From: Sulfuricurvum sp.
GTDB taxonomy: Bacteria > Campylobacterota > Campylobacteria > Campylobacterales > Sulfurimonadaceae
Length of the DNA: 42,394 bases
Assembly: GCF_023250475.1 (NCBI RefSeq)
Contig: NZ_JAHFAQ010000003.1
Coordinates: 1-42,394, forward strand
Reading direction: 5' to 3'
A model generated the notes under the pieces. The model was not told where the DNA came from. It made no database searches and saw only the letters and a list, made by a program, of their open reading frames with translations. The translations under genes were made by a program, and so were the position numbers. Of this stretch, positions 33,684 to 37,505 are shown piece after piece (position 1 is the stretch's first letter; the number at the start of each line of letters is the position of its first letter).

Positions 33684-33887
33684 ATGTATCGTATGACTTA
33701 TAATCATTTAAATAATTCTGGATGTTCTGCACGCGGCATTGCAAAGCGTGAGAGCAAAGAAGAACTGCTTAAACTTGCGGAAGAGCTGAAGGGATCGATT
33801 TGCAATGTTGATATACGCCCTGTTGAGGGAATTATAGAAAAGCGTCTTCCCATGGAGCTCTTTTTAAACATGAAAGAGTTACGGTGA
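33684..33887 (+). CDS. 67-residue protein of unknown function coupled to lsrK
   Basis: A short soluble protein containing NNSGCSARGIAKRESKEELL and a C-terminal IIEKRLPMELFLNMKELR. I recognise no domain. It overlaps the lsrK start by GTGA (33884-33887), so lsrK translation probably depends on it. The ribosome site is weak (GGATTGA). It could be a small regulator of the kinase or a leader gene. Confidence 0.55.
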   Translation: MYRMTYNHLNNSGCSARGIAKRESKEELLKLAEELKGSICNVDIRPVEGIIEKRLPMELFLNMKELR

Positions 33888-35416
33888 ATCGTTACTTTCT
33901 TGTACTGGATGCAGGGACGGGAAGTATCCGTGCCATTATCTTCGATACCATAGGAAATCAAATCGCTATTTCCCAATACGAGTGGGAACATATTGCCGAA
34001 GCGGGCGTTGCGGGATCGATGGGATTTGATTTTGTGCGCGGGTGGGAACTTGCCAAGCGGTGTATCCGAGAATCCATCGCCCTATCCGGAATCAATCCTG
34101 CCGACATTGTGGCGGTATCGGCATCAAGTATGCGCGAGGGGATTGTCGTTTATGATGGCGAAAAGGGTGAGCTTTGGGGTGTAGCCAATGTCGATGGCCG
34201 ATCGGGTGAGGAAGTTTCCTATCTTAAAAAAACATTTCCCTCCCTGGAAGCGGAGCGTTACGCGATTAGCGGACAAACGTTTGCTCTCTCTGCCGCTCCG
34301 AGGCTTCTGTGGCTGAAAAATAATCGCCCCTCTCTCTACGAAAAGGCATGCTACTTCACGATGATTAGTGATTGGGTTCTTTTTAAACTCAGCGGAGAGT
34401 TAGCGTCTGAGCCTTCCAATGCGGGGACGGCAGGAGCTTTTAGTCTTAAAAGTCGTACTTGGGATAAGAGCGAGTTTCAAAAATGCGGACTTAAAGATCT
34501 CTTTGTTCCGATACGAGAGAGCGGAGAGGTGTTAGGTCATCTCAGTGCAGAAGCCTCTCGTGAGACGGGATTAAGTCGTGATACCCTCGTGGTGATGGGA
34601 GGGGGCGACGTTCAAATCGGTACGGCGGGTCTAGGAGCATCGAAATTCGGCGATGCGGTCGTACTAGGCGGGAGCTTTTGGCAGCAGGTCGTGAATATCC
34701 CTAGTGATGCGATACTCTCGAATGAGATGCTATTACGGGTCAATCCTCATGTAGTTAGCGGTATGTCTCAGGCGGAGGGGATCACCTTTTTTACGGGATT
34801 GGTGATGCGTTGGTTTCGTAACACACTTGGGTGCGGGAAAAGCTATGCGGAACTTGAAGCAATGGCTAAAGATGTACCTCTAGGCTCATATGGAATTACC
34901 CCCATCTTTAGTGATAGGATGAACTACGGTGAGTGGATACATGCCTCCCCCTCATTTATCGGTTTGGGGCTGGACGAGTCTAAATACAACGTCGCATCCA
35001 TGTTTCGTGCCCTCGAAGAGAACGCATGTATCGTGAGTGCGATTAATTTGGAGAACATCAAAGCGTTTAGCGGCGTATCTCCTGATTCCATTACCTTTGC
35101 GAGCGGAGCTTCCAACGGAGCATTATGGTCTCAGATACTCGCCGATGTGACGGGTTTGGCGGTAAATGTCCCCGTGGTTAAAGAGGCAACGGCCTTGGGT
35201 GTAGCCATGGCGTGCGGGATCGGTTCGGGTGATTATAAAAGTTTTGAAGAGGCGGGAAGTGCTATCGTTAAGATGGAACGGACCTATGAGCCGAACAGGT
35301 CAAATCATACACAGTATAAAGAGATAAAAGAGAAATGGCTCAAAGTCTACTCCAAGCAGATGGAACTAGTCAAAGAAGGTATTTTGGAGCCGATGTGGAA
35401 GGCTCCCGGAATTTAG
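33884..35416 (+). CDS. lsrK: Autoinducer-2 kinase LsrK
   Basis: A 510-residue FGGY kinase that resembles E. coli LsrK along its whole length. It opens with FLVLDAGTGSIRAIIFD, then SSMREGIVVYD, NVDGRSGEEVS, ISDWVLFKLSGELASEPSNA, GGGDVQIGTAGLG, GGSFWQQVVN, RVNPHVVSGMSQAE, FFTGLVMRWFR, ITPIFSDRMNYGEW and the C-terminal MWKAPGI (LWKAPGL in E. coli, from memory). LsrK phosphorylates AI-2 (DPD) at C5 in the cytosol, trapping it and making the inducer of lsr genes. GTG start within the previous stop. It converges on the LsrG-like gene with a four-base overlap. Confidence 0.93.
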   Translation: MNRYFLVLDAGTGSIRAIIFDTIGNQIAISQYEWEHIAEAGVAGSMGFDFVRGWELAKRCIRESIALSGINPADIVAVSASSMREGIVVYDGEKGELWGVANVDGRSGEEVSYLKKTFPSLEAERYAISGQTFALSAAPRLLWLKNNRPSLYEKACYFTMISDWVLFKLSGELASEPSNAGTAGAFSLKSRTWDKSEFQKCGLKDLFVPIRESGEVLGHLSAEASRETGLSRDTLVVMGGGDVQIGTAGLGASKFGDAVVLGGSFWQQVVNIPSDAILSNEMLLRVNPHVVSGMSQAEGITFFTGLVMRWFRNTLGCGKSYAELEAMAKDVPLGSYGITPIFSDRMNYGEWIHASPSFIGLGLDESKYNVASMFRALEENACIVSAINLENIKAFSGVSPDSITFASGASNGALWSQILADVTGLAVNVPVVKEATALGVAMACGIGSGDYKSFEEAGSAIVKMERTYEPNRSNHTQYKEIKEKWLKVYSKQMELVKEGILEPMWKAPGI

Positions 35417-35718
35417 AAACCGTAAGCTTTCTCGTCGAGAAGGTCTAACTCTTCGGTGTATTTATCATCCACAAACGGTTCATAGTGTGATTTGTAGTAG
35501 GCATAGTGTTCCGTGTGCTTATGTCCCTCTAATGACGCATCATCTGCCCACGACTCAACGGCGAAGAATTTACGTGGATTATCACGAGACTGAAAGATAT
35601 AGTAATAGAGGCATCCCGGCTCTTTGAGTGAGGGAGCCACCATATCCTCTAAGAGTTTTTTGACCGTTGCGATATGTTCCTCTTTGGCGATAAAGGTCAC
35701 TTTTTTTGTAATTTTCAT
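35413..35718 (-). CDS. Antibiotic-biosynthesis-monooxygenase-fold protein, LsrG-like
   Basis: A 101-residue single ABM domain: KKVTFIAKEEHIATVKKLLE, EPGCLYYYIFQS, FFAVESWADDASLEGHKHTE and HYAYY match the family, including the His and Trp region. LsrG, an ABM protein of about 96 residues, isomerises phospho-DPD made by LsrK. The convergent lsrK makes this function attractive, but YgiN-type quinol monooxygenases share the fold. It follows the class II aldolase by 11 bases on the same strand. Confidence 0.65.
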   Translation of the reverse strand: MKITKKVTFIAKEEHIATVKKLLEDMVAPSLKEPGCLYYYIFQSRDNPRKFFAVESWADDASLEGHKHTEHYAYYKSHYEPFVDDKYTEELDLLDEKAYGF

Positions 35719-35729
35719 CTATGTATTCC

Positions 35730-36902
35730 TTATTTTTTGAGTTTAGCTTGTTCGAGTTCCCAGTATTCCATTTCGAACATCTGAGCCAATGTGAGTGATC
35801 CCCATCCGCCGAGCTGTTCAGCAGAGAGGATAGCGGTAATTGTGTGCTTGACGATGTCGCCGATGATCCGGGACTCTTTTTCATCTTTTCCGAGTACTAC
35901 GATTCCGACCCCTTTAATCACCGCGTAGCGAGGGGCAAGATCGAGGCAGATATGCTCAAGCGAAGCGTTGGCGTCAAAATAGCTTTTATAATCCTTTGCA
36001 AACTCGGCAATTCCTGATGCGATATCATTGTCGATAATTGCAGGAAACGGTTTGATTCGAATAACGTGCTCGGGAGTCAATCCCCCTCTTTTGACGAGCG
36101 ATTCGAGATTGGGGAGGATACTGAAAAGTTGGGCACGCGGTGAATCGATGAGAAGCGGAAATACCTCACCACCGCGAACTTTGGATACCTCTGCACCGAC
36201 GGCGGGGGCCACAGAGGGGTCACCTTTTCCTTCACAATCACCGCACGCCAATGTGACGTGTTCAGCCAGATACGCTTCGGCGACGGTGACGAGTTCAATC
36301 ATCTTCTCATAGGCGCGCTGTGCATCGTTATCAAACGTAAAGACGCCGTGGTGCATCAGAATCATCCCCGTGAGGCTGTTCCAATCGATATTACGGGTCA
36401 TCTCATAGATATGTTTTGCCAGCTCAAATCCGGGCATTACATAATCGATGATGAGCATGTTTTCCCCGTAGAGCTTTTGAACCAACGCTTTGCCATTCGG
36501 GGTATTGGTGAGGGTGACGACCGCATCGGCATGGGTGTGATCGACATAATCATAGGGGATTATGGCATGGAGGATCGCCTCAATGGAGGGATTCGGGAAA
36601 CTTTGATCCGACATGGCGGCACGCTGCTCGGCTACCATTTGGGTATCGCTGAGAGTCTCCCGTGTTGCCATTTCCAGAAGGACATCGAGGTTTACGGGAG
36701 AAAACCCCGGTTTTTCGATCGTATCAAGATTCCAGCCGCTCCCCTTGACGTAGAGGGTGTTATCGATTTTTACCGAAGTGTTCCCGCCGCCGTGGAGAAC
36801 GAGCTCCTTGCTTTGACCTAAAAGCTGAGAGGTGTATACCCTCATCCCCAGAGGGTCGTTTCGGTATTGTGCAGCAACTGCGTCGTCAAAGAGACTTGTC
36901 AT
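35730..36902 (-). CDS. Class II aldolase/adducin family protein (RhaD-type, long form)
   Basis: A 390-residue protein with GGGNTSVKI (38-46), PSIEAILHA with catalytic Glu108, DHTHADAV with zinc ligands His122 and His124, and LMHHGVFTFDND with the third His. Length and the C-terminal part resemble the aldolase module of bifunctional rhamnulose-phosphate aldolase/dehydrogenases, here without the dehydrogenase. It heads a two-gene operon with the LsrG-like gene and is divergent from luxS. By context it could split a phosphorylated AI-2 product, replacing LsrF, but a role on an ordinary sugar phosphate is equally possible. AAGGATC precedes the ATG. Confidence 0.8.
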   Translation of the reverse strand: MTSLFDDAVAAQYRNDPLGMRVYTSQLLGQSKELVLHGGGNTSVKIDNTLYVKGSGWNLDTIEKPGFSPVNLDVLLEMATRETLSDTQMVAEQRAAMSDQSFPNPSIEAILHAIIPYDYVDHTHADAVVTLTNTPNGKALVQKLYGENMLIIDYVMPGFELAKHIYEMTRNIDWNSLTGMILMHHGVFTFDNDAQRAYEKMIELVTVAEAYLAEHVTLACGDCEGKGDPSVAPAVGAEVSKVRGGEVFPLLIDSPRAQLFSILPNLESLVKRGGLTPEHVIRIKPFPAIIDNDIASGIAEFAKDYKSYFDANASLEHICLDLAPRYAVIKGVGIVVLGKDEKESRIIGDIVKHTITAILSAEQLGGWGSLTLAQMFEMEYWELEQAKLKK

Positions 36903-36930
36903 AATGTTAGATCCTTCTATTAGTGATCAA

Positions 36931-36936
36931 ATTATA
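36931..36936 (-). promoter_or_regulatory. -10 box of the aldolase-lsrG-like operon
   Basis: Minus-strand GCTATAATTTG, 28 bases before the aldolase ATG. Confidence 0.5.
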
Positions 36937-36955
36937 GCGATGCAAGGATGAAATA

Positions 36956-36964
36956 TGCTAATAT
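36956..36964 (+). promoter_or_regulatory. Extended -10 candidate of the luxS operon
   Basis: TGCTAATAT has the TG-n of an extended -10 followed by TAATAT. It is 34 bases before the luxS ATG, which has AAGGATTTTC in front. It lies back to back with the aldolase promoter. Confidence 0.45.
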
Positions 36965-36998
36965 TGCTCCTATTAAATATAAAAATTGAAGGATTTTC

Positions 36999-37505
36999 AT
37001 GCCGTTACTCGATAGTTTTTGCGTAGACCACACCATTATGCCCGCTCCCGCCGTTCGCAAAGCAAAGGGGATGAAAACCCCTAAGGGAGACGATATCACC
37101 GTTTTTGATTTACGTTTTGTAAAACCGAATGAAAAGACACTCTCTCCTGAGGGTATCCATACCTTGGAACATCTGTTTGCCGGATTTATGCGCGATCATC
37201 TCAACTCAGGAAGCACGGAGATCATCGATATCTCTCCTATGGGATGCCGTACCGGATTTTATATGTCTGTGATCGGGACGCCGAGCGAAGAGATCGTTGC
37301 CGAGGCTTGGGAAGCATCTATGAAAGATATCCTCGAAGTAAAAAGCCAAAACGATATCCCTGAACTCAACATCTATCAATGCGGAACGTACAAAATGCAC
37401 TCCCTCGAAGATGCGAAAGCGATTGCGACCGAAGTGCTCCGCAAAGATATCGACATCATGGATAACGAAGCATTAGCGCTTGACCTTGCAAAGGTAGAGC
37501 AATAA
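36999..37505 (+). CDS. luxS: S-ribosylhomocysteine lyase LuxS
   Basis: A 168-residue LuxS: the metal site is HTLEH (His54, His58, with Glu57 as base) and Cys128 in YQCGTYKMH; catalytic Cys83 lies in MGCRTGFY. It cleaves S-ribosylhomocysteine to homocysteine and DPD, the AI-2 precursor, completing the activated methyl cycle. It is first of a tightly overlapping operon (stop and next start share TAATG) and next to lsrK-type genes. Confidence 0.98.

Follow-up and report, generated by a model that had tools for sequence, protein, structure and literature searches.

Autoinducer-2 (AI-2; 4,5-dihydroxy-2,3-pentanedione, DPD) appears to be broken down inside the cell by a kinase (LsrK), an ABM-type protein and an unusual class II aldolase in Sulfuricurvum and some of its relatives. 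The corresponding genes lie between positions 33,684 and 37,505 of a 42,394-nt stretch of DNA (the window), which is contig C35 of a Sulfuricurvum genome of 2.17 Mb (G000; 95% complete, 185 contigs). Its nearest named relative, judged by the aldolase, is the Sulfuricurvum isolate STA_65 (88% identity). With a probability of roughly one half, we infer that the locus serves the intracellular disposal of the LuxS product with partial recovery of its carbon, along a route which leads from LuxS through LsrK and the ABM protein to the aldolase. This reading is carried by the family of the kinase, the family and fold of the aldolase, the co-occurrence of the genes and the lack of any convincing LsrF, LsrB or LsrR in 50 genomes which encode LsrK.

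Genes of the locus

The gene lsrK (33884..35416, plus strand) encodes an FGGY-family kinase of 510 aa from a GTG start and is convergent with the gene of a 101-aa ABM-fold protein (35413..35718, minus strand), with an overlap of 4 bases. The latter is separated by 11 bases from the gene of the class II aldolase on the same strand (35730..36902; 390 aa), a candidate replacement for LsrF. Divergent from the aldolase gene and 96 bases away lies luxS (36999..37505, plus strand), which encodes the S-ribosylhomocysteine lyase that makes DPD (NF002602, 299.6 bits against a cut-off of 197). Open reading frame (ORF) calls together with Pfam and NCBIfam matches confirm these four genes, their strands and their arrangement as given in a preliminary description of this DNA. 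The start of lsrK is corrected from 33684, where the described region begins, to the GTG at 33884; positions 33684..33887 constitute a separate frame of 67 codons.

The kinase reaches 732.9 bits on NF008187, the NCBI equivalog model for AI-2 kinases, and passes its cut-off of 528 by 205 bits, while remaining under the respective cut-offs of all 11 other FGGY models listed. It shares 52% identity with Escherichia coli LsrK over 520 columns. Among solved structures, LsrK 5ya0 is the top match (E=7e-169), followed by glycerol kinase (6e-33). The earlier identification as an LsrK-like kinase is borne out by these scores, and on such sequence comparisons the protein very probably phosphorylates DPD; the kinase step of the proposed route is well supported.

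The aldolase matches Pfam Aldolase_II (76.6 bits) and scores 424.8 bits on NF006197, the model for bifunctional aldolase/short-chain dehydrogenases, which is under the cut-off of 627; a dehydrogenase domain is not present. Judged by family comparison, it is the aldolase (N-terminal) half of this bifunctional family (PRK08324; NF006197 and relatives), sharing about 47–54% identity over 370–390 aa with fused members, whereas the dehydrogenase half is missing from the window protein. The predicted structure (pLDDT, the predicted local distance difference test, 93.5) resembles class II aldolase domains in residues 1–220, the matches being 3m4r (Z 30.7), FucA 2opi (Z 19.1 over 176 residues), the DHAP-bound DrdA 6btg (Z 17.8 over 175 residues; DHAP, dihydroxyacetone phosphate) and RhaD 2v9i (Z 16.2 over 183 residues). 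All of these matches bear on residues 1–220, and residues 221–390 are hardly covered. Residues N41, S106, E108, H122, H124 and H185, which by motif we take to be the site residues of a class II aldolase, show a conservation of at least 97% in both aldolase groups (91 sequences in all); the three histidines would bind the metal and E108 would be the catalytic glutamate. In a multiple alignment with FucA and RhaD, only N41 and H185 are in register with the site residues of these two enzymes, and alignment of the aldolase to single FucA and RhaD sequences with hhalign gave no meaningful result.

A conserved three-gene association

The distribution of the genes was surveyed in a class sample of 150 genomes from 39 genera, where LsrK was scored by the NF008187 cut-off. 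LsrK exceeds this cut-off in 11 genomes, and five more contain only other FGGY kinases which score under it. Exactly the same 11 genomes encode the long aldolase (E<1e-110) and the ABM protein (E<1e-25); elsewhere, the aldolase search returned a single weak match (G106, 1.8e-14) and the ABM search weak matches in 24 genomes (4e-8 or worse). The 11 genomes fall into 6 of the 39 genera and therefore do not represent 11 independent cases. LuxS is far more widespread and was found in 121 of the 150 genomes, namely in all 11 with LsrK and in 110 of the 139 without, so that it shows no significant association with LsrK (p 0.086). Of the four genes whose co-occurrence the preliminary description proposed to survey, lsrK, the aldolase gene and the ABM gene coincide, and luxS is also common without them; as part of a strict module, luxS was rejected. 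A chance neighbourhood in which each gene belongs to a separate pathway would agree with the wide occurrence of luxS, but is very improbable given that the other three genes occur together in all 11 genomes with LsrK, albeit from only six genera, and in none of the 139 others.

At least two of the three genes are adjacent in each of the 11 genomes. Five of them show the one-strand order ABM-aldolase-lsrK (G143, G009, G129, G116 and G037), in two lsrK lies 5–6 kb away from the ABM-aldolase pair (G122 and G134), and in the window's genome and G133 lsrK is inverted next to this pair with luxS on the far side. Contig borders split the genes of G126 (ABM and lsrK together, aldolase on a different contig) and of G125 (ABM and aldolase together, lsrK on a different contig). 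LsrK, the long aldolase and the ABM protein form a conserved three-gene association, which luxS joins in Sulfuricurvum-like loci and in three relatives; the gathering with luxS, as first described for the window, is confined to these. In G125, a nucleosidase-like frame of 171 aa (L074:138-653) is found two genes upstream of the aldolase-ABM pair on the opposite strand, with weak scores for futalosine hydrolase and methylthioadenosine/S-adenosylhomocysteine nucleosidase.

Named relatives were obtained by a profile search of genome contigs with the aldolase alignment, from which the best 80 of at least 585 loci were analysed. Among these best 80, 27 contain an aldolase without dehydrogenase, all labelled as Campylobacterota or a group within. 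Two further loci, from Sulfurimonas G18 (L154) and Shewanella hanedai (L156), contain a decayed dehydrogenase half: the Pfam short-chain dehydrogenase model matches with its first 77 residues only in L154 and not at all in L156, compared with a full match in G126. The search for LsrK covered 50 of the 80 genomes: these 29, the full set of 10 fused-aldolase Campylobacterota and 11 of the remaining 41. All 29 genomes without an intact dehydrogenase on the aldolase encode LsrK (two partial at contig ends, and an interrupted copy in G175), as do all 10 fused-aldolase Campylobacterota (one partial), as opposed to none of the 11 fused-aldolase genomes from elsewhere. One long aldolase was found in each of 24 genomes examined (in G185 as two matched pieces).

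In ten named loci (L109–L115, L116, L117 and L119), luxS adjoins the aldolase gene. Furthermore, lsrK is followed in Sulfurimonas and kin (L028, L154 and L238–L245) by genes which we take, on reading, to be metK and an mqnE-like radical S-adenosylmethionine (SAM) gene, and in L154 the aldolase gene lies between these two. This position ties lsrK to SAM turnover, to which both luxS and metK belong.

The dehydrogenase half and the DHAP shunt

The state of the dehydrogenase half was compared across 77 loci not cut inside the gene, counting neighbours at a distance of up to 6 kb. It is missing or decayed in all 19 aldolases near lsrK and intact in 15 of the 16 near mtnA (Fisher 5e-9 for this contrast, with kinship ignored). 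In a quick-method tree with midpoint root, 37 dehydrogenase-less sequences lie on one side of a branch with an SH-aLRT support of 99. The aldolases of L154 and L156 are placed among the fused ones and carry dehydrogenase remnants, which demonstrates two decays. Four more loci (L172, L178, L185 and L187) also failed the motif rule for an intact dehydrogenase, L178 and L187 at full length, indicating that this rule is strict.

Several observations on the aldolase, together with those given below for the cleavage chemistry and the ABM protein, weigh against the proposed route. Tree-aware tests of the dehydrogenase contrast retain about two informative independent pairs (sign test p 0.5), and the main clade of 37 may never have had a dehydrogenase, as an alternative to loss. 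In one locus of Opitutales (L142, 580 aa), the dehydrogenase is not intact and no lsrK lies nearby. Shewanella hanedai and Sulfurimonas G18, whose dehydrogenases decayed separately, have D at position 278 and not the E of the clade. The sole long aldolase found in fused-aldolase Sulfurimonas is not beside lsrK in the regions fetched. We know of no substrate for any member of the window aldolase's clade, and the sister clade probably cuts 5-deoxypentulose 1-phosphates, because its genes lie in mtnK-mtnA operons.

These sister aldolases suggest a different explanation, in which the window aldolase works in a DHAP shunt of methylthioribose or 5-deoxyribose. The substrates of the LsrK-like kinase and of the ABM protein would then be these compounds or related 5-deoxypentoses instead of AI-2. 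The shunt (MtnK, MtnA, Ald2; DrdK, DrdI, DrdA) likewise combines a kinase, an isomerase and a class II aldolase, disposes of SAM by-products and releases DHAP; DrdA does so from 5-deoxyribulose 1-phosphate (PMC6079011, excerpt), and in E. coli strains possessing it the shunt feeds carbon metabolism (PMC10986504, excerpt). The sister aldolases adjoin mtnA in 16 named loci, the fused aldolase of G126 follows the end of mtnK and then mtnA, and mtnA exceeds its cut-off in all 11 fused-aldolase Campylobacterota. The match of the window aldolase's fold to DrdA 6btg points in the same direction. Conversely, mtnA exceeds its cut-off in only 5 of 39 genomes with a dehydrogenase-less or decayed aldolase and gave no match in the window's genome. 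None of these five contains a second long aldolase, and in all three whose mtnA region was read (L233, L235 and L236) mtnA is accompanied by an mtnK-like gene and by the gene of another, short class II aldolase (about 202 aa), with one gene between in L236; both mtnK-like genes scanned, from two of these three loci, pass the MtnK cut-off. The locus further departs from the shunt in its FGGY-type LsrK in place of MtnK, in an ABM protein where the shunt has MtnA, and in a long aldolase of a separate clade. The rarity of mtnA, the separate short aldolases, the margin by which the kinase exceeds the AI-2 kinase cut-off and its scores below the cut-offs of the other 11 FGGY models listed make a role in the DHAP shunt unlikely. 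In fused-aldolase Sulfurimonas, the AI-2 branch and the 5-deoxypentose branch might share a single long aldolase.

Proposed route and comparison with the enteric Lsr system

Along the route of AI-2 disposal, LuxS would convert S-ribosylhomocysteine to homocysteine and DPD, and LsrK would phosphorylate DPD at C5, thereby trapping it in the cell. The ABM protein would then convert phospho-DPD to 3-hydroxy-2,4-pentanedione 5-phosphate in the manner of LsrG. The unhydrated isomer, CH2OP-CO-CHOH-CO-CH3, is a 5-deoxypentulose 1-phosphate oxidised at C4, and its DHAP half would be the same as the one DrdA releases from 5-deoxyribulose 1-phosphate. The class II aldolase is proposed to hold this half and cut the C2–C3 bond to give DHAP, with attack of water on the acetyl ketone yielding acetate; the enteric counterpart would be the coenzyme A (CoA)-dependent thiolase LsrF. 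Since this reaction would release an acid rather than an aldehyde, there would be no need for the dehydrogenase half of the sister aldolases, and hydrolytic cleavage to DHAP and acetate would require neither a dehydrogenase nor LsrF. The C2–C3 cleavage of a beta-diketone is a retro-Claisen reaction and not the usual retro-aldol reaction of this family.

The proposal that the aldolase stands in place of LsrF, made in the preliminary description, is supported in part: it agrees with the co-occurrence, with the DHAP-aldolase fold and with the lack of a convincing LsrF in any of the 50 genomes. The aldolase probably acts on a compound derived from phospho-DPD; DHAP and acetate are suggested only tentatively as its products. 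In a wider scheme, which is rather doubtful, an undescribed branch of AI-2 breakdown would comprise a class II aldolase which hydrolyses the LsrG-type product to DHAP and acetate and is kin to the bifunctional aldolase/dehydrogenases of the DHAP shunt. Its dehydrogenase half would decay once coupled to LsrK (two separate decays and one large group without it), and in some Sulfurimonas one fused aldolase would serve the AI-2 and 5-deoxypentose branches, with DHAP as the common end point of all these SAM by-products. The module suggests a testable answer to how AI-2 is disposed of in bacteria without LsrF, the known last enzyme, by pointing to a candidate enzyme and to genomes suited to its study, and would lend weight to the idea that LuxS/AI-2 chemistry is metabolic housekeeping in many bacteria.

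The window's ABM protein had initially been described as LsrG-like. The ABM fold is supported by Pfam ABM (60.4 bits) and by the predicted structure (pLDDT 95.1), whereas the identity with LsrG is not: the protein scores 32 bits on the LsrG equivalog model, failing the cut-off of 135, and scores like other ABM proteins. Three further ABM members of the module reach 29–41 bits and two ABM proteins from lsrK-less class genomes 28–29 bits; E. coli YgiN, used as a control, gave no match to this model. Only 9 of 32 ABM members are closer to LsrG than to three other ABM proteins, and the window's protein is not among the nine. In a structure search with the predicted model, PA3566 is nearest and other ABM proteins also rank above LsrG, which appears at rank 8 (3qmq; TM 0.88/0.91). 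E. coli LsrG gave no tblastn match in the window (E up to 1e-3), and a direct two-sequence blastp comparison aligned 43 residues at 30% identity. A firm assignment as LsrG was rejected on the basis of the LsrG-model controls and the comparison with other ABM proteins.

As the sequence alone does not make the ABM protein an LsrG, the argument for an isomerase rests on context. In 20 of the 29 named genomes whose aldolase has no dehydrogenase or a decayed one, an ABM gene is found at a distance of up to 6 kb from the aldolase gene; two more (G167 and G169) have one near lsrK, and five of the nine fused-aldolase genomes whose lsrK region was fetched have one within 4 kb of lsrK. In the other 7 of the 29, no ABM gene was found near lsrK or the aldolase gene in the stretches read, with no genome-wide search. 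On this context, the ABM protein is somewhat favoured as a candidate phospho-DPD isomerase, being LsrG-like by context only. In nine distinct genomes, a Cupin_2 protein of about 124 aa adjoins lsrK (L156:13468-13842, L026:10241-10615 and L246:6876-7340, as well as L116, L125, L150, L166, L249 and L252), with at least 67% identity between Shewanella hanedai and Campylobacterota. In four of the nine (G163, G166, G172 and G188), the stretches read showed no ABM gene. The Cupin_2 protein is a possible alternative isomerase. One genome of Sulfurovaceae (G169, contigs C92 and C43) contains two complete copies of lsrK, of which one converges with an ABM gene, and L110:5456-5533 and L113:4629-4682 show short second ABM-gene matches beyond the full one, resembling a partial copy or an insertion.

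The enteric Lsr system of E. coli and Salmonella (lsrACDBFG, lsrRK) shares with the locus the LsrK kinase family, a small ABM-fold protein and DHAP as a product, which is proposed here and is also a product of LsrF. LsrF is annotated as 3-hydroxy-2,4-pentadione 5-phosphate thiolase. As described for E. coli in excerpts of the respective papers, LsrK phosphorylates AI-2 at C5 (PMC2728841), LsrG converts phospho-DPD to 3,4,4-trihydroxy-2-pentanone 5-phosphate (PMC12274486) and the end products of AI-2 are DHAP and acetyl-CoA (PMC7828210). In contrast, at the step which would call for LsrF the locus has a class II aldolase, and luxS or metK lies close by in some genomes. As the preliminary description had stated, LsrA, LsrB, LsrC, LsrD, LsrF and LsrR are not found at the locus, where the E. 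coli queries gave no tblastn match within the window (E up to 1e-3). LsrB, LsrF and LsrR also gave no match in the whole of the 95% complete genome G000; LsrA, LsrC and LsrD were not searched for genome-wide. The same three E. coli proteins were used as queries in 50 LsrK-bearing genomes, 11 from the class sample and 39 named, and no convincing match was obtained in any of the 50. The best LsrF match reached 27 bits with about 30% identity over half of the protein (seven genomes), LsrB gave two weak matches of 28% identity in one genome (35.5 and 32 bits; G172, S. hanedai) and LsrR a single match of 21 bits (G159). In function, the locus would correspond to the intracellular part of the Lsr system, but it does not have the features that define that system.

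The locus could also represent a signalling device, in which AI-2 is imported by a transporter unrelated to LsrB, such as a tripartite ATP-independent periplasmic (TRAP) transporter, phospho-AI-2 serves as the cue and the aldolase and ABM protein switch the signal off. This would be consistent with Shewanella hanedai, where lsrK and an aldolase with decayed dehydrogenase lie beside the cupin gene, followed by TRAP-like transporter genes. Signalling is nevertheless quite unlikely, given that no convincing LsrR or LsrB was found in 50 of 50 LsrK-bearing genomes (other AI-2 receptors were not searched for) and that the ORF lists read show no regulator or transporter as a recurrent neighbour. Detoxification or salvage of the LuxS product, raised in the preliminary description as an alternative to quorum sensing, is the better reading, if not a proven one. 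In S. hanedai, the genes after lsrK and the cupin gene (L156:16275-19258) are three in number, are presumably those of a TRAP transporter and represent a candidate AI-2 importer.

The open-licence literature on LsrK, the aldolase, autoinducer-2 and ABM proteins, as far as excerpts cover it, contains no LsrK-aldolase-ABM module, and nothing was found there which joins LsrK with Sulfurimonas or the term "autoinducer-2 kinase" with Campylobacterota. An excerpt of one paper (PMC6302742) makes no mention of LsrK, and lsrB is reported absent from Helicobacter and Campylobacter (PMC2561040, excerpt).

The 67-codon frame on the plus strand (33684..33887), which overlaps the GTG start of lsrK by 4 bases in a reading frame of its own, may not belong to the system. 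It gave no match in Pfam and NCBIfam scans and is found at 63–81% identity in 5 of the best 80 named loci, all from Sulfuricurvum, and at 66% identity in G133.

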